57,436 bases of DNA, taken from Planctomycetota bacterium. GTDB lineage: Bacteria; Planctomycetota; Planctomycetia; Planctomycetales; Planctomycetaceae. Position 1 is the stretch's first letter. Every line of letters starts with the position of its first letter. Shown one piece after another: positions 39,022 to 46,585 of the stretch. Location: contig JAQCEJ010000028.1 of assembly GCA_027618475.1 (NCBI GenBank), positions 1-57,436 on the forward strand. Reading direction: 5' to 3'. Below the pieces are notes generated by a model. It was not told the DNA's origin. It made no database searches and saw only the letters and a program-made list of their open reading frames with translations. The position numbers and the translations under genes are program-made.

Positions 39022-39684
39022 TTACCAGGGGATAAATCGCGATGCGGCAAGGCTGGAGGGAATCGAGGAGGGCTGTAACTCGAGGTGTCCGCTTTGGGAT
39101 GGGATCTGATGTGCAATTTTTGCAAGGTTGAGAAATCTGTGCAGCAGATAATACCCCCCCTCCGTCAGAATCGACTCGGGGTGAAATTGCACGCCAAACA
39201 AAGGCCAGGTTCGGTGCTCCATGGCCATCGGAATTCCCTCGGCAGTGCGGGCAGTGATCGTCCAATCATGAGGCAGCGACGCTTCGTCGACGATCAACGA
39301 GTGATACCGCATGACGCGCAGAGGATTAGAGAGACCGACAAATATTGATTGATCGTGGTGAGTAATCAGCGACGTCCGTCCATGAAACGGTTCGGGGGCA
39401 CGGATGATTCTTCCACCGTACGCCGCCGCCATGGCCTGATGCCCCAAGCAGACACCAAGCATAGGAATCCGCTTACCAAGTTGTTGAATCAATGCGATAC
39501 AGACACCGGCAGCGGCGGGTTCCCCTGGCCCGGGTGACAGAACAATCGCTTCAGGCTTCATCTCGGCGATCTCGGTAACAGACAGCCGGTCGTTACGCAC
39601 GACACGGGTTTCGCAACCAAGCTCCAGCAGGTAGCGGGAGAGGTTGTAGACAAAGCTGTCGTAATTGTCGATGAGCAAAATCAT
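39022..39684 (-). CDS. pabA: Aminodeoxychorismate synthase glutaminase subunit
   Basis: This class I glutamine amidotransferase provides ammonia to its partner. The 220-residue product has Cys79 in GVCLGHQ, His168 and Glu170 in QFHPES, and the oxyanion motif PGPGEP. PabA and TrpG are very similar and can be shared between pathways. The partner here is PabB-like, so pABA synthesis is the better call. Its ATG overlaps the pabB stop by 4 bp (ATGA), which implies translational coupling. A C-terminal tail of about 25 residues is longer than needed. Confidence 0.9.
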   Translation of the reverse strand: MILLIDNYDSFVYNLSRYLLELGCETRVVRNDRLSVTEIAEMKPEAIVLSPGPGEPAAAGVCIALIQQLGKRIPMLGVCLGHQAMAAAYGGRIIRAPEPFHGRTSLITHHDQSIFVGLSNPLRVMRYHSLIVDEASLPHDWTITARTAEGIPMAMEHRTWPLFGVQFHPESILTEGGYYLLHRFLNLAKIAHQIPSQSGHLELQPSSIPSSLAASRFIPW

Positions 39685-41150
39685 TTCAGCGCCCGCAACA
39701 TTCCTTCGGCTTTATGCAACGTTTCGAGGTATTCCGACGCCGGGTCGGACTGTGCGACAATCCCTCCCCCCACCGAACATTGTATCCAGCCCGAACGAAC
39801 GACAAATGTGCGTATGATGATGTTGCTGTCCATTCCGCCGTGAAACCCGACATGAAACAGGCTGCCGCAGTACGGACCGCGAGCGGTCGGTTCGATCGAT
39901 GCAATGACTTCCATCGCCCTGACCTTCGGCGCGCCGGTGATCGAACCGCCGGGAGACAGCGCCGTCAGCAAGTCCCACGCCGTCATTTTATAGGCGAGGC
40001 GGCCTCGGATGGCCGTCACAAGATGTTGCACGGTCGAATACGTTTCGACGCGGCAAAGTTCAGGGACACGAATCGATCCCGGCTGACAGACTCGCGACAA
40101 ATCGTTCCGCAACAGATCGGCAATCATCACGTTTTCCGCTTGATCTTTTTCGCTCTCACGCAACGCATCGCGAGTGTAAAGATCGGCTTCGATGCCGGGT
40201 TGACGTTGTCGTGTCCCTTTGATCGGACGGGTTTCTGCGTCACGGCCGCACAACGAAACAAAACGTTCGGGAGATGCACTGAGAATGTCCCAGGCGTTAC
40301 CGCGCAACAGGCCGGCAAACGGAGCGGGATTTCGCTGACGGAGTCGACCATATAATTCCAGGCTGGATAACCTCTGTGGCAAAAGCAACCGTTGGGAGAG
40401 ATTGGCCTGAAAGATATCACCGGCGTAGATGTGTTCAATCACTTGTCGAACCGCTTGAAGATATCCCTCACGTGAAAAATCGCTGGTAAGACCCTCAACC
40501 CCCGGGGCATCGAATTGTGGAGCCAGTTCGTCGCGACCGAGCGACGTGTGCGGCAATGTTTCAACTGATGTTTTGCCCGGCATCGAGACGATGTCGGCGA
40601 CAACTTGCTCCAAACGCTGTTGCGCCCGTGCCTGCCGACGCATAGGGTCTCGTTCGGGATACCCTTGCGAAATAATCCATGCGCGATCAAGCTGGTGGTC
40701 CCAGGCAATCACCCAGTCGTAACAGCCGAACGCCGCCGCAGGCATTTGAAATTCGTCATACATTGTGCGTGGGAGACGTTCCCAGGCATGCCCTAATTCA
40801 TACGAGAGAAACCCGGCTATTCCCCCCTGGAATGGCGGCAACCCCTCGATCTTCCCCACCTGATACGTTTGACTCAATCGACGCACTTCGGCGAACGGAT
40901 CAACGCCGTATGTTGCCTTGGGCAATTCGTTCCACCAGCAGGGATCAGCCGAAACGAACGAAAACCTCCCTAGCGTCTTGCTCGGCAATGCGCTGTCGAA
41001 TGCCACCAGGTGTGGCCAGTGACTCAGCTTCTCCAGCACTTCGCCGATCAACGGGACAGGGGAAAGCTCTCGCACGGCCACCTCGCGGTCGCCGAGAGGG
41101 GGTAACTCGGCCCCGTCATGAACTTCAGTGGTACCTGATTCGAAGATCAT
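39681..41150 (-). CDS. pabB: Aminodeoxychorismate synthase component I
   Basis: PabB converts chorismate plus ammonia to 4-amino-4-deoxychorismate, the precursor of p-aminobenzoate. The 489-residue product has the chorismate-binding domain with PGGSITGAPK and the motif PIKGTRQR. Lys311 in that motif is the covalent lysine typical of PabB; anthranilate synthase has Ala there (PIAGT). This favours pABA over tryptophan synthesis. No lyase (PabC) gene is in the window. It lies 37 bp downstream of the dihydropteroate-synthase-like gene and overlaps pabA by 4 bp. Confidence 0.92.
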   Translation of the reverse strand: MIFESGTTEVHDGAELPPLGDREVAVRELSPVPLIGEVLEKLSHWPHLVAFDSALPSKTLGRFSFVSADPCWWNELPKATYGVDPFAEVRRLSQTYQVGKIEGLPPFQGGIAGFLSYELGHAWERLPRTMYDEFQMPAAAFGCYDWVIAWDHQLDRAWIISQGYPERDPMRRQARAQQRLEQVVADIVSMPGKTSVETLPHTSLGRDELAPQFDAPGVEGLTSDFSREGYLQAVRQVIEHIYAGDIFQANLSQRLLLPQRLSSLELYGRLRQRNPAPFAGLLRGNAWDILSASPERFVSLCGRDAETRPIKGTRQRQPGIEADLYTRDALRESEKDQAENVMIADLLRNDLSRVCQPGSIRVPELCRVETYSTVQHLVTAIRGRLAYKMTAWDLLTALSPGGSITGAPKVRAMEVIASIEPTARGPYCGSLFHVGFHGGMDSNIIIRTFVVRSGWIQCSVGGGIVAQSDPASEYLETLHKAEGMLRALK

Positions 41151-41187
41151 TTGAGATTCTAAAAAAAACGTGACGGTCTCGATACAC

Positions 41188-42594
41188 TCACTTTACATCG
41201 TCCTTGGGGTTGGTATCGACCCGATGCGAAGGGGGCGTGTGCTTCTCCGGTCGCGTTAGAAACCCCCAATTCAGGGCTTCGTCCTGCACGTATTGTTTGC
41301 CGAGGGTTAGAGCCGTCAAGGCTTTGCACATTTCAAAACCGAGATAAAATGCATGCGCGGCTGAAACATCATTCGGTTGAGACAACGCCTGTTCGAAGAG
41401 TTCAAACGGATCATCTCCCTGCCAATGTCCGTCTCGATTGAAGAGATGCAGCGTCTCTTCTCCGACCAGAATGCGGTAATTGGGATCTTGAATCTGATCG
41501 GCAAGCCGGCTGATATCACCGGGGTCGAGTCTGTGTAATTTCGGATCGCGCAGCATAACAAGTTGATCGCTCAATCGCTTGAGTACAACGTGCCGGGTGA
41601 CACTATGATGCACCAACCGGCGGGCAATATCGAATTCTTGAACGGTCGTTCGAGCCCAGTTGATGACCTGCGTCGTCAGTATGCTGTGGATGCCGAGTTC
41701 CTGGCAGATCGCAGCGAGTAGAAGATTTACGCCGGCCGAATCGACATCGGTTAATTCCGTAAGATTACCGACACCCATCAACATCGGAACATCAAGCCAG
41801 CGCCGACGAACAGTGAAATAACGTTCGAGTGATTTTGCAAAACCGTGACCGATCGGTTCGAGAATCGGGTCGATGCGATAACGGGCTTTCTTCGAATCGA
41901 GAATCTCGATAGTTGATTCGAGGCTCGCGAGATCGGTCGGATCATCGGGTATGACCACCAATTCCGCCGGAAGGTCTGCCCCCCACGCGATGTTCGTCCC
42001 GTTACAGCTCAAAACGAGTTCTGCCCCGGAATTGACGGCGGACTCGACTTCGCTGCGGTCGAAACTATCGATCGAAACCCGCAGACCTTCGGCCACCAAC
42101 ATCGACGTTGCCTCCGCCACTCCACTCCACGTTTCACCGGGAATACAGCCGAGGTCGATTACGTCGGCCCCCTGTGCGACAAGCCGCTTGGCTTCCTTCA
42201 AGAGGTCGTCCGACGACATTCGAGGGGCATGGTTGATCTCAGCGACTATCTCGATATCAAACTCGTCAAATGCAGGTTGAATTCTCTGCGCCGAACCCAA
42301 AAAATCAGGGAGATCGAACAGATCTTTGGGGCCCAGAGTAAAGGGGACGCCGAAATGCTGGTGGAGACGATTGAGATCACCTTGACACCATCCCGGCAGA
42401 ATCACACGTTCGATTTCTGCGGGAAGAACCAGCCGTCGCAACAGCAACTCGACATGCATCAACGCGGCGACGCTGACTCCGATAACGCACACGTCCGTGT
42501 GGAGTCCCAGTCGATCACGCAGGTCTTCACACACGCGGCGCAGCGACGGCTCGGCTAACCGACCGGTCACCATCAGGATGCGTTCGCCATTCAT
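41188..42594 (-). CDS. Dihydropteroate-synthase-like (DUF6513-type) protein
   Basis: The 468-residue product has an N-terminal domain (about 1-125) of the type I recall as DUF6513, followed by a TIM-barrel pterin-binding domain like dihydropteroate synthase. Recognisable strands are FDIEIVAEINHAP, GADVIDLGCIPG and LRVSIDSFDRSEV. It is longer than FolP (about 280). Proteins of this kind occur with archaeal-type C1-transfer genes in methylotrophs and planctomycetes, and are thought to act in methanopterin-type cofactor synthesis rather than folate. The flanking pabB/pabA and phhB genes fit that. Folate synthesis remains an alternative. Upstream phhB is 36 bp away. Confidence 0.82.
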   Translation of the reverse strand: MNGERILMVTGRLAEPSLRRVCEDLRDRLGLHTDVCVIGVSVAALMHVELLLRRLVLPAEIERVILPGWCQGDLNRLHQHFGVPFTLGPKDLFDLPDFLGSAQRIQPAFDEFDIEIVAEINHAPRMSSDDLLKEAKRLVAQGADVIDLGCIPGETWSGVAEATSMLVAEGLRVSIDSFDRSEVESAVNSGAELVLSCNGTNIAWGADLPAELVVIPDDPTDLASLESTIEILDSKKARYRIDPILEPIGHGFAKSLERYFTVRRRWLDVPMLMGVGNLTELTDVDSAGVNLLLAAICQELGIHSILTTQVINWARTTVQEFDIARRLVHHSVTRHVVLKRLSDQLVMLRDPKLHRLDPGDISRLADQIQDPNYRILVGEETLHLFNRDGHWQGDDPFELFEQALSQPNDVSAAHAFYLGFEMCKALTALTLGKQYVQDEALNWGFLTRPEKHTPPSHRVDTNPKDDVK

Positions 42595-42630
42595 GGCGTG
42601 CCTCTTGGAAGAGCAGGTCGGTTCATCTCG

Positions 42631-42987
42631 TTAGTGCGTCCACTTCTTGGGGAACCCGGAGAGAGTCGCACCCGGAGCAGGCTTCCATGTCGAAATCTCT
42701 TCAATTTTACGAGCGAGCTCGACGTCGAGCATCGTAATCCCCTTCACACGATGCGTTTGCAACTTAACAGTGACTTTCGCGTAACCGAGCGACAAATCAG
42801 GATGATGCCACGCCCCATCCGCGAGATATCCGATCGTCGAGGCCAACATGATCGTGTGGGGCCATCCCGGTGTCGCAAATTCCCGCCGTAACCAGTTATC
42901 GCGTAGCTCCCACCCCGGCAATGTTTTTAACGTCTCGGAGATTTCAGCCTCCGACAGTACGACATCTTGCGGATTGTCGCCGGCCAT
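42631..42987 (-). CDS. phhB: Pterin-4-alpha-carbinolamine dehydratase
   Basis: The 118-residue product has the family signature HHPD (in GAWHHPDLSLGYAKV) and the usual length. The start at 42987 is preceded by AGGAG at ideal spacing; a frame from 43041 lacks this. Such enzymes dehydrate 4a-hydroxytetrahydropterins. No aromatic amino-acid hydroxylase is nearby, so here it may serve pterin cofactor synthesis or repair, as seen for homologs acting in molybdopterin or folate metabolism. It sits second in the SDR-phhB-DHPS-like-pabB-pabA set. Confidence 0.92.
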   Translation of the reverse strand: MAGDNPQDVVLSEAEISETLKTLPGWELRDNWLRREFATPGWPHTIMLASTIGYLADGAWHHPDLSLGYAKVTVKLQTHRVKGITMLDVELARKIEEISTWKPAPGATLSGFPKKWTH

Positions 42988-43194
42988 AATTTTGCTCCTT
43001 TCGCAATACTGGGGATACCCACCCCACCCTGTAAGCGACATCCATTGTGCGATGAAAGAGTCCGATACTCAAGCGGGGAGTTAATGACGCAAAGACTTGG
43101 CTCGAAATCGGATCAGAAATGACAAACCGTTTTGACACGCAACCCCAATCGCTTCACCTGCTCAAAACATCAGATCGGTGCCACTCGACATCGT

Positions 43195-43983
43195 TCACCT
43201 CACTGCCCCGCCGTTGGCGTAGATCACTTGACCGGTCAGGTAACTGGCCTCATCGCTCACAAGAAATCGTGCCAGATGGGCGATGTCTTCCGGCGTTCCC
43301 CAACGTTTCAAGGGAGTTTCTCTTACAACACGATCCTGCCACTGGGAGCCCGCTTTTTCGCCCCACGCCGTGCGAATCCAACCCGGAGCGATGCAATTCA
43401 CACGCACTTCGGGGGCAAGGCTCACGGCGAGAGAGCGGCTGAAACCCATAATGGCATTCTTTGCCGTGGCGAACAATTCGCCGCTCTCCCCCTCCATCCC
43501 TCGATCGGCCTGATCCCAGCCAATATTGAGAATCACCCCTTTAGGTCGGTTCGCAATATCATCTCGGACTTTCATCTGATCACCGACGAGACGCGACAGA
43601 ATCACCGTGCTGCGGACGTCAATTTCCCACAACGCCTGGAGTTTTTGGGAGTATTCCCACCTGGAAGCCTTACCGGTCAGCACGTCGACACCGGCATTAT
43701 TGACCCAAATGTCGACTTGAGATTCGTGGTAACAGACATGATTTACTAAATTTTCATAAGAGTTTGGTTCGCTGAAATCGGCCTGAAGCAGCGTCGCCAC
43801 TCCCCCGTGGGACGAAATCTCGGCCAACACATGATTCGCGCCGTCATGATTATGGCTGTAGTGAATGACAACCGAGGCTCCTGCGCGGGCCAGTTCGAGT
43901 GCGATCGCTCGACCGATGCCACTTGATGCTCCGGTCACAACCGCTTTTTTACCAGTCAGTTCTGCAAAATGTCCCTGCCACAT
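43195..43983 (-). CDS. Short-chain dehydrogenase-family protein lacking the catalytic Tyr and Ser
   Basis: The 262-residue product has the NAD(P)-binding TGASSGIG motif (17-24) and NNAG (95-98). The active-site YxxxK is FATAK, with Phe171 replacing the catalytic Tyr while Lys175 remains. The expected Ser about 13 residues earlier is replaced within GWDQADRG. The overall sequence looks like a FabG or pteridine-reductase-type SDR, but standard SDR chemistry should be impaired. The start at 43983 follows GAGGA; frames from 44016/44013 are longer without it. It is first in the pterin/pABA set, though 207 bp separates it from phhB. It could be a pterin-binding, regulatory or alternative-mechanism enzyme. 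Confidence 0.88.
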   Translation of the reverse strand: MWQGHFAELTGKKAVVTGASSGIGRAIALELARAGASVVIHYSHNHDGANHVLAEISSHGGVATLLQADFSEPNSYENLVNHVCYHESQVDIWVNNAGVDVLTGKASRWEYSQKLQALWEIDVRSTVILSRLVGDQMKVRDDIANRPKGVILNIGWDQADRGMEGESGELFATAKNAIMGFSRSLAVSLAPEVRVNCIAPGWIRTAWGEKAGSQWQDRVVRETPLKRWGTPEDIAHLARFLVSDEASYLTGQVIYANGGAVR

Positions 43984-44789
43984 GACATCCTCAAATCCGT
44001 CGAGCGAACGCATCATCCTTTATTATCGGGCTTTTGATGTGTGCCACAGATAAATACCATTCTTTGATCAAAAACTGTCCAAGATAATTGTATCAACCTC
44101 ATCGGAATTTGCGCAGTTTTTTCGCTTTATGATGGGTTCGCCACGGAGGGAAATTGATCGGCGATCCGAGGTTACGTGGGGAGCTCCGAGTGACCAACAC
44201 AGCAGAACACTCATTAAGGTACGTGGCTACATCAGAGAGGGATTACGAATCTGTCATCGGGTTCAGTCGCTTCGCGAAAATGTCGACATTTTCGCTATTT
44301 TTAGCTGTTTTCCACAAAATGCGCGAACTCGCCGGAAGATTATTGACGGCTGAGAACTCGGATGTCATAATAGCGCAAAATGCTTGCGCAACTTGCCCTC
44401 TATTATCTGGAGGATGTGTAAGCTCGCGTTTAATTGATTCACATCTCTGAAAGACGAACCTATCAATATGTAAACCGATCACGATTCACATCTATCCTAT
44501 CTTGCAGTCGCATATAAAATAAATTCAGATCATGCAGTTCATTGCAGAGCGTGGCTCCGAATTCTTCGGTTCTCATGCGAACTCCGTTCGACGCTTCTTC
44601 AAATGCACATGATTTTTGTCGAAGAGAAAGAGTGTTCTGCGGAGAGATTCCACGATCACCAGCGAAGGGGTTGATCCTTTGTCAAAACCACCACATCGGC
44701 CGGAGGCCGATTCCGGGGATGGCCCGCATGATGAGGCCGCAACTTCCCCAAACAGTCTTCAATCCAAGGTAGAAAGTGCAGAAGAGATT
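43984..44789. other. Divergent intergenic region, SDR / ArsR
   Basis: This 806-bp region has no convincing gene. A small hairpin (GCGCAA / TTGCGC, 44372-44388) is present. An AT-rich block near 44500-44525 (ATATAAAATAAATT) may hold a -10 element for the regulator. The sequence near 44090-44125 resembles that around 37436-37480. Confidence 0.45.
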
Positions 44790-45188
44790 ATGATTTCCCA
44801 ACTCGCCGAGCCCGTTAGCAGCAAAACCTCAAGGAAGATTCCTGCGTTAACCGAGCAACTCGAAAAAGACCTCGTGCAGGTATTCAAACTCCTGTCCGAC
44901 GAAACCCGCCTGCGAATTCTTTTGTACCTCGTCCGCGAAGGCGAACTTCACGTTACCGCCCTTTGTGAAAAACTCGGACAGAGCCAACCCGCTGTCAGCC
45001 ATCACCTGGCCCTCTTGCGGGTCGCCAGCTTGATCGAAGCCCGACGCGACGGCAAACACAACTTCTACTCCGTTCGCCGCGTTCACTTCCATCGCATTAT
45101 CGAAGAACTCTTCCAGAATATCAGCGAATTCGGCGAAGAAATTCGCTTCGATGAATTCGTGATCTCGCACGACAACGACGACATGTAA
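44790..45188 (+). CDS. ArsR-family transcriptional regulator
   Basis: The 132-residue product has the winged helix-turn-helix of the ArsR/SmtB family (about 25-100): LLSDETRLRILLYL, then the recognition region SQPAVSHHLALLR and the wing RRDGKHNFYSV. The metal-binding CxC motif of ArsR or SmtB is absent; only one Cys (in ALCEKLG) is seen, so it likely senses something other than arsenic, or no ligand. I chose the ATG at 44790; a TTG-led frame from 44616 would add a polar, proline-rich extension. It lies about 220 bp upstream of carA on the same strand; targets are unknown. Its acidic C-terminus (HDNDDM) is notable. Confidence 0.88.
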   Translation: MISQLAEPVSSKTSRKIPALTEQLEKDLVQVFKLLSDETRLRILLYLVREGELHVTALCEKLGQSQPAVSHHLALLRVASLIEARRDGKHNFYSVRRVHFHRIIEELFQNISEFGEEIRFDEFVISHDNDDM

Positions 45189-45406
45189 TCACACCATCGC
45201 GTCCGCCTCGAATGGGCAGAGAATTTCGATCCTTTGACCCGCGTCACCCCGAAATCGATGAAGCGACCGCCGCACGAGCGATGGTCGCTTTTTTTCTGCG
45301 CGCTGGTATGCTAAAAAAGAGGCCGAGTCGAGAGTCCAAAACCAGAGGTGTGACGACTCGGCGTCCCGCCCAGATACCACTCATCATTCCTCCTTGCGTG
45401 AGCGTT

Positions 45407-46585
45407 ATGTCTCCACAAAAAACTGCAAAACTGGCACTTGCCGACGGTACCGTTTTCACCGGCACCGGTTTCGGAGCCGACGGGGAAGTCTACGGCGAAG
45501 TCTGCTTCAATACGAGCATGACCGGCTACCAGGAAATTCTCACCGACCCTTCCTACTGCGGACAGATCGTCACTATGACCTATCCGCACATCGGTAATTA
45601 CGGCGTCAACCCGGCCGATATTGAAAGCCGCAGCCTGTTCCTGCGGGGCTTCATCATTCGTGATCTCTGTTCGATCCCCAGTAATTATCGCTCGACATCG
45701 AACCTCGACGAATATCTTCGCTCCGCCGGCGTCATCGGATTAGCAGGAATCGACACCCGCGCTTTGGTTCGTCGTATCCGCACGCAAGGGGCCATGACCG
45801 GACTCCTTTCGACCGTCGATCTCGATGATGCTTCACTGATTCACAAGGCCAAGAACAGCCCCGACATCGTCGGGCAGGATCTCGTCCGCGAAGTACTAGA
45901 CCATCGGGCATCCTTCGATTGGCAGGACGGGCTCGACGATCTCGTGACCTCCGCCTATTCGTTCACCGCGGCGGCCGTCGCCGTCAAGGGAACGTATCGT
46001 ACGGCGGAGCATCAGCCGCACGTCGTCGCCGTCGACTACGGCATGAAGTGGAACATCCCGCGGCATCTGCGGGCGCAGGGTTGCCGAGTGACGGTTGTCC
46101 CCGGTTCGACGTCGGCCGAACAGATACTCGCCCATCAGCCGGACGGCGTATTTCTCTCGAACGGCCCCGGGGATCCCCGTCCGCTCGAATACGCCATCGG
46201 CACCATTCGCGATCTGCTGGGCGTAAAGCCGATCTTTGGTATCTGCCTGGGACATCAACTGCTGGGCATTGCCTGCGGTGGAGAAATCTTCAAATTGAAA
46301 TTCGGCCATCGCGGAGCGAATCAGCCGGTGCTTAATCATCGAACGGGACGTGTCGAAATCACATCGCAAAATCACGGTTTTGCTCTCGATGCGACATCGC
46401 TCCCCGAAGCCGTCGAGGTGACGCACGAAAACCTCAACGACCGCACGGTCGAGGGGATTCGCCATCGCGAGCATGCGGCATTCGGCGTGCAGTACCACCC
46501 CGAAGCTTCCGCCGGCCCGCATGACAGCCAGTACCTGTTCCGTGAGTTCATGGAACTGATGTCGCAAGAAGCTGTCACCGGCTAA
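45407..46585 (+). CDS. carA: Carbamoyl-phosphate synthase small subunit
   Basis: CarA hydrolyses glutamine and feeds ammonia to CarB for arginine and pyrimidine synthesis. The 392-residue product has the N-terminal CPSase signature (NTSMTGYQEILTDPSY) and a C-terminal class I amidotransferase with Cys280 (GICLGHQ), His364 and Glu366 (YHPEA). I placed the start at 45407 (MSPQKTAK); a frame from 45212 adds 65 residues without family character. No carB gene follows in the window, so the large subunit is encoded elsewhere. Confidence 0.97.
   Translation: MSPQKTAKLALADGTVFTGTGFGADGEVYGEVCFNTSMTGYQEILTDPSYCGQIVTMTYPHIGNYGVNPADIESRSLFLRGFIIRDLCSIPSNYRSTSNLDEYLRSAGVIGLAGIDTRALVRRIRTQGAMTGLLSTVDLDDASLIHKAKNSPDIVGQDLVREVLDHRASFDWQDGLDDLVTSAYSFTAAAVAVKGTYRTAEHQPHVVAVDYGMKWNIPRHLRAQGCRVTVVPGSTSAEQILAHQPDGVFLSNGPGDPRPLEYAIGTIRDLLGVKPIFGICLGHQLLGIACGGEIFKLKFGHRGANQPVLNHRTGRVEITSQNHGFALDATSLPEAVEVTHENLNDRTVEGIRHREHAAFGVQYHPEASAGPHDSQYLFREFMELMSQEAVTG

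Follow-up and report, generated by a model that had tools for sequence, protein, structure and literature searches.

A five-gene operon from a Planctomycetota bacterium almost certainly belongs to the pathway for tetrahydromethanopterin (H4MPT), a single-carbon carrier best known from methane-producing archaea. The operon lies on contig JAQCEJ010000028.1 (GCA_027618475.1), in a 57,436-nt stretch of DNA that we call the window and to which the coordinates of the operon refer. Its five open reading frames (ORFs), all on the minus strand, encode a short-chain dehydrogenase/reductase (SDR), a pterin carbinolamine dehydratase (PCD), a dihydropteroate synthase (DHPS)-like protein with a DUF6513 domain, PabB and PabA. 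Our best explanation as a whole is that the operon contributes the pterin and para-aminobenzoate (pABA) parts of (dephospho)tetrahydromethanopterin and that the SDR is the final reductase, a combined proposal that we give an even chance of being right. We computed the gene families, their co-occurrence across the phylum, operon membership and the loss of a catalytic tyrosine, and we infer every enzymatic assignment. PabA and PabB would supply pABA, which MptG, encoded on another contig, would convert to beta-ribofuranosylaminobenzene phosphate (beta-RFAP). The DHPS-like DUF6513 protein would couple beta-RFAP with an activated dihydropterin, and PCD may act on some pterin intermediate. In the last step the SDR would use NAD(P)H to reduce dihydromethanopterin (H2MPT) to H4MPT, a task that falls to the AfpA/DmrB flavoprotein or to DmrA in other bacteria.

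Association of the operon with H4MPT genes

A preliminary description of this DNA had read the operon as part of H4MPT synthesis and as a pABA-to-pterin branch distinct from folate. The rest of the source genome (5.93 Mb, 100% complete by tool estimate) supports both ideas, and the absence of every H4MPT pathway gene, named there as grounds for refutation, is not what it shows. Mch is encoded on contig C132 (387.6 bits, cut-off 25), which at 4,740 bases is too short to show the gene neighborhood of mch. Contig C153 carries MptG of the beta-RFAP synthase family (TIGR00144, 123.9 bits, cut-off 113.5) and one of two Fae proteins, together with Mpt_N of the methylene-H4MPT dehydrogenase family. 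The stricter MptG model NF040726 scored 164.9 on a source-genome protein, below its cut-off of 328. A separate folP with a strong match (298 bits) is present on C40, so the DHPS-like gene is not needed as a folate enzyme. C24 holds another Pterin_bind match, probably MetH, within a frame of 1257 residues.

The operon genes track the H4MPT pathway across the phylum. One draw of 199 planctomycete genomes served for the repeated profile searches. Mch was found in 18 of these genomes, and DUF6513 in 19, namely all 18 Mch+ genomes and one other (G167). Fae, MptG and Mpt_N were each found in 18 of the 19 DUF6513 genomes, with G167 lacking each of them, and 14 of the 18 MptG matches reached the cut-off. 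The SDR subfamily was searched with a profile (A2) built from eight neighbors, at E<=1e-60 and with at most 13 candidates scored per genome. It was present, as one protein each, in 17 of the 18 Mch+ genomes and in none of the 181 Mch- genomes. The SDR is retained in nine of the 17 even though it is distant from DUF6513.

These counts bear on the possibility that the operon serves folate, either with the DHPS-like protein as a folate enzyme or with the SDR in place of dihydrofolate reductase (DHFR). pabA and pabB also feed folate, and DHFR_1 has no match in the source genome. A folate operon is nevertheless scarcely credible given the separate folP and the tracking of Mch by DUF6513, and on these two grounds the folate-only reading was set aside. 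DHFR_1 was found in 69 of the 181 Mch- genomes and not in the other 112, yet the SDR is missing from all 181 and was therefore rejected as a general DHFR substitute.

An SDR subfamily without the catalytic tyrosine

The SDR differs from SDRs outside its subfamily at the YxxxK motif, where the window protein is an FxxxK variant. In an alignment of 51 SDR sequences (the window protein and 50 from 107 scanned loci, duplicates included), position 182, the Tyr of YxxxK elsewhere, is Phe in 50 and Tyr in one. Residues G166, W167, D168, G173, M174, G176, S178, K186, G212, W213, T216 and W218 are invariant in all 51. A structural model (pLDDT 85.0) has an ordinary SDR fold. When it is aligned to a FabG structure, the window Phe coincides with the FabG Tyr and three extra residues appear at the Ser region, and FabG-type enzymes head the fold look-up (2uvd, Z 32.8, rmsd 2.3, 243 residues aligned). 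Pteridine reductases were absent from the best 50 fold matches, which excludes nothing. Outside Planctomycetota, where the search covered plasmids, the best listed match is 37.2% identical.

We compared the SDR to the pteridine reductases PTR1, FolM and PruA, with which it shares the SDR fold and the proposed reduction of a dihydropterin to a tetrahydropterin. The motifs stated for these enzymes in the excerpted text of PMC13259868, YX3K and TGX3RXG, are both lost in the window SDR, which has FATAK and TGASSGIG. Judged by those motifs, its sequence falls outside the PTR1/FolM type of pteridine reductase.

The link of this SDR subfamily to H4MPT is a new point. The preliminary description had called the roles of both the SDR and PCD (PhhB) in such a pathway undescribed. 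For the SDR this stands, as none was found in the literature searched, a search that did not cover the key gene-island paper PMC1151760. For PCD it does not, since pcd, like pabB, is linked to H4MPT in the accessible part of PMC3615186.

The final reduction step

The last step of H4MPT synthesis in bacteria is assigned to DmrA or to an AfpA/DmrB flavoprotein, and two lineages are described in excerpts of PMC6193120, whose tree of DmrA, DfrA and DfrB groups all planctomycete homologs with DfrA. The same paper reports that C1 growth lost on knockout of dmrA is restored by AfpA. Planctomycetes are central to the debate on the age of the bacterial H4MPT pathway, and according to the excerpted account of Chistoserdova no Afp gene is recognized in their genomes (PMC5020050). 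TIGR02699 (AfpA) gave no match over its cut-off in the 19 DUF6513 genomes, with weak scores of 20-31 bits in eight of them (best 30.6), and no match at E<=0.001 in the source genome. DHFR_1 is missing from 12 of the 18 Mch+ genomes, all 12 of which carry the SDR, a pattern in favor of the SDR as reductase.

Proteobacterial regions differ at this point. AfpA, DmrB and DmrX catalyze the reaction that we propose for the SDR and occupy the same neighborhood, beside DUF6513, but they are PF02441 flavoproteins, a family unrelated to the SDR. A flavoprotein lies directly beside DUF6513 on two of the four proteobacterial plasmids opened, and under the DUF6513 match in six of the 20 plasmid rows listed. 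The two flavoproteins directly beside DUF6513 on the opened plasmids scored 84-88 bits with TIGR02699, itself below cut-off, and 98 bits with TIGR02700, the model for dihydromethanopterin reductase (acceptor). The position of the flavoprotein is held by a kinase on the other two plasmids, both from Azospirillum, and in Azospirillum ramasamyi a 'dihydrofolate reductase family protein' of the RibD_C type lies close to the RimK gene. PF00186 may miss DmrA-type proteins, given that this A. ramasamyi protein matches RibD_C instead. Because a flavoprotein, a kinase and a RibD_C-type protein are found in differing proteobacterial regions, the reductase gene appears to have been swapped among lineages, with the SDR occupying the DUF6513 neighborhood in planctomycetes.

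A dihydropterin is reduced by transfer of a hydride and a single proton, chemistry for which DHFR relies on a carboxylate and not on a tyrosine. An invariant Asp combined with a lost Tyr would thus be chemically acceptable. The SDR, which has lost the Tyr and kept an invariant Trp-Asp pair and the Lys, may equally well be or not be a third, non-homologous and flavin-free H2MPT reductase. If it is, replacement of the final H4MPT step by unrelated folds has happened three times or more, and the catalytic Tyr of the SDR family is dispensable in one of its subfamilies. Having the SDR as a named candidate makes the reductase gap in planctomycetes testable by one complementation.

Other reactions would also suit a Tyr-less SDR. 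Pure hydride transfer and the co-occurrence with Mch fit an NAD(P)-dependent methylene-H4MPT dehydrogenase, but this assignment is very improbable: every one of the 18 Mch+ genomes already has a member of the Mtd family (Mpt_N), and we rejected the candidate for that reason. Alternatively, the operon could make H4MPT with an SDR that forms the deoxyribitol by opening the ribofuranosyl ring in the beta-RFAP moiety. A ring-opening reductive step belongs to White's pathway, and we know of no gene for it. The same co-occurrence and operon evidence applies to this role, and hydride-only chemistry at the benzylic carbon would suit the lost Tyr as well. However, every organism that makes H4MPT should require such an enzyme, and the four proteobacterial H4MPT regions opened have no annotated SDR (their gene tables are incomplete). 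The 37.2% identity of the best plasmid SDR listed, from a search that did not extend to chromosomes, and the absence of the SDR from Mch+ genome G185 also make ring opening unlikely.

Several observations weigh against the SDR as the H2MPT reductase and against the pathway built around it. G185 is 98% complete and has Mch, Fae, MptG, Mpt_N and DUF6513, and neither the SDR (at E<=1e-60) nor Afp was found in it. It does have DHFR_1, a gene also present in five of the Mch+ genomes with the SDR. The SDR gene stands elsewhere than DUF6513 in nine of 17 genomes and is separated from PCD by 153-207 bp in the window, and the window SDR has neither motif stated for pteridine reductases. The negative for Afp-type enzymes rests on TIGR02699, and the planctomycete searches included neither TIGR02700 nor a dedicated DmrA model. 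The barrel fold of the DHPS-like protein has no power to separate a DHPS from a methyltransferase. Finally, the co-occurrence counts are not independent: the Mch+ genomes come from only seven families (tool labels), with ten of the 18 in one, so that Fisher values of about 1e-23 overstate the case.

The DHPS-like DUF6513 protein

An N-terminal DUF6513-type domain had been proposed for the DHPS-like protein, and Pfam recovers it at 68.9 bits (cut-off 23.9), with Pterin_bind at 25.8 (cut-off 25.5) and PterinBD-DUF4346 at 28.1, below its cut-off of 29.6. The sole NCBIfam match at E<=0.001 is to TIGR00284, the archaeal dihydropteroate-synthase-like protein (residues 114-440, 172.7 bits), below the cut-off of 256.65; the window protein is of a bacterial branch. 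The FolP equivalog TIGR01496 gave no match at E<=0.001. FolP and the window protein have the pterin-binding TIM barrel in common, and the DUF6513 domain is extra in the latter. A fold look-up with the barrel ended in a tie between DHPS (1ad1, Z 21.3, rmsd 2.9, 214 aligned) and methyltetrahydrofolate methyltransferase (2e7f, Z 21.4, rmsd 3.5, 224 aligned).

We think it likely that this protein is the condensing enzyme that joins the dihydropterin to beta-RFAP. The fold alone is insufficient for this assignment, which is favored by the neighboring pabA, pabB and PCD genes and by co-occurrence with MptG. As a near-perfect tracker of Mch, the DUF6513 protein gives the condensation of pterin and beta-RFAP a clean target. 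An archaeal condensing enzyme has reportedly been assigned to MJ0301, a protein of another fold. The literature searched held no paper on DUF6513, DUF4346, TIGR00284 or MJ0107, and none joining methanopterin and MJ0301.

Gene neighborhoods in planctomycetes and Proteobacteria

A comparison of planctomycete neighborhoods, suggested in the preliminary description, found that the SDR, PCD, pabB and pabA genes recur beside DUF6513, and this recurrence indicates that the arrangement in the window is not due to chance. We inspected 18 further DUF6513 regions, each about 20 kb long. A closely similar SDR (51-58% identity) stands beside DUF6513 in seven, PCD in eight, pabB in 12 (one cut by a contig end) and pabA in four. 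We also examined named planctomycete loci, comprising the best 80 of 580 confirmed; some are the same contigs as other loci (L112/L031, L098/L043). Upstream, where at least 1.7 kb was available, the SDR was found in 30 and PCD in 12 of 71 loci. Downstream, pabB was found in 36 of 67 loci with at least 1.6 kb and pabA in 20 of 58 with at least 3.2 kb.

Four genomes from three families (G133, G148, G117 and G064) contain a contiguous run of mch, a RimK-like ATP-grasp gene, a CitG-like gene, SDR, PCD (missing from the run in G064), DUF6513 and pabB. These runs raise the possibility that the SDR works in methylofuran synthesis, or in some other accessory step linked to H4MPT, and not on the pterin itself. 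The SDR follows the RimK-like gene in all four, and this neighbor of mch corresponds to Orf5, the methylofuran glutamate ligase MyfB (PMC8141765, in excerpt). The most frequent fixed position of the SDR, however, is directly upstream of PCD/DUF6513 (the 30 of 71 named loci, from the best 80 of 580), and no methylofuran gene was seen in the window, which leaves this role quite improbable. The preferred role for the SDR is still the reduction of H2MPT.

Other genomes show variations on these arrangements. G185, the sole Mch+ genome of the 18 without the SDR, has its H4MPT genes grouped, with mch, RimK, CitG, PCD and DUF6513 in one region (L045 4751-11299). The CitG-like gene in the mch run of G133 is fused to a 6-pyruvoyl-tetrahydropterin-synthase domain (L036 8517-9935). 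A divergent DUF6513 gene (37% identical) lies beside pabB in G167 (L035 7183-10196), the genome with no Mch, Fae, MptG, Mpt_N or SDR, and this pair is either a relic or has a second function.

Parts of this picture are already known, namely the presence of H4MPT genes in planctomycetes and the status of pcd and pabB as H4MPT genes. H4MPT-linked genes have been reported in planctomycetes since 2004 (cited in the available text of PMC5020050). Excerpts of PMC3615186 describe a pcbD-mptG island in Methylosinus trichosporium, an mch-orf5-orf7 order in Methylosinus, and pabB as 'commonly associated' with methylotroph H4MPT biosynthesis. The island of M. trichosporium OB3b, as far as it is given there, and that of a Phyllobacterium zundukense plasmid share with planctomycetes DUF6513, PCD, MptG, DUF447 and the mch-RimK(Orf5)-CitG-like order, with mch-RimK-CitG found in Phyllobacterium also. 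In contrast to these islands, the DUF6513 neighbor in the window is the SDR and not afpA, pabA and pabB lie inside the operon, and Afp was undetected in the genome (TIGR02699, E<=0.001). The window protein shares 40-42% identity with three DUF6513 proteins from Proteobacteria. By synteny, DUF6513 is probably Orf20 of methylotrophs, as the excerpted OB3b order orf19-orf20-afpA-orf21-orf22 matches DUF447-DUF6513-flavoprotein-MfnE-like-MfnB in Phyllobacterium.

PCD together with an SDR-type dihydropteridine reductase is a known pair, and the two proteins of the window could likewise recycle the pterin for an aromatic hydroxylase that depends on it. This is highly improbable, since the SDR subfamily occurs in none of the 181 Mch- genomes and PCD genes adjoin MptG in two proteobacterial H4MPT regions. 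On the Thiodictyon plasmid pTs485 (L193 11471-20130), H4MPT/methylofuran genes lie beside DISARM drmA, with transposases in the region.

Organization of the locus

The operon had been described as five same-strand genes in the order SDR, PCD, DHPS-like gene, pabB and pabA, with a 4-bp overlap between the last two. ORFs, Pfam and NCBIfam agree on this layout (Table 1).

Table 1. Coordinates and supporting scores of operon features in the 57,436-nt window
Feature	Position	Strand	Support
SDR-family oxidoreductase, planctomycete subfamily, FxxxK replacing YxxxK	43195..44016	-	adh_short_C2 161.5 bits
Pterin carbinolamine dehydratase (PCD/PhhB)	42631..43041	-	Pterin_4a 89.1 bits; NF002017 86.8, cut-off 80 (reached)
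DHPS-like DUF6513 protein, proposed condensing enzyme	41188..42594	-	DUF6513 68.9 bits
DUF6513 domain inside DHPS-like gene	42325..42585	-	PF20123 72.4 bits
Pterin-binding TIM barrel, residues 112-337 of DHPS-like protein	41584..42261	-	model pLDDT 78.4
pabB, aminodeoxychorismate synthase component I (PIKGT)	39681..41150	-	Chorismate_bind 286.5 bits
pabA, glutamine amidotransferase component	39022..39684	-	GATase 199.6 bits; TIGR00566 208, cut-off 121.05

The Lys in PIKGT, previously taken as a mark of PabB over TrpE, was found in the window PabB. This protein scored below the cut-offs of TIGR00553 (325.5, cut-off 328.4), TIGR01824 (349.3, cut-off 408.55) and the trpE model TIGR00564 (340.6, cut-off 517.7). 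For the SDR, an internal ATG at 43983, the start chosen in the preliminary description, is also possible. The likelier PCD start, as suggested by a preceding AAAGGAG, is the ATG at 42987. The gap from SDR to PCD is 153 bp (207 with the later PCD start), compared to 36 bp from PCD to the DHPS-like gene and 37 bp from there to pabB. Promoter and terminator scans gave no excess over shuffled sequences.

The operon is flanked by a thioredoxin/YHS gene and rho downstream and by a divergent carA upstream. Three genomes (G048, G069 and G181; L157-L159, L028, L030, L032) have the operon split between SDR and PCD. The SDR in these genomes is beside carA, as in the window (43195-46585), and PCD-DUF6513-pabB-pabA and a thioredoxin-like gene are found together elsewhere.

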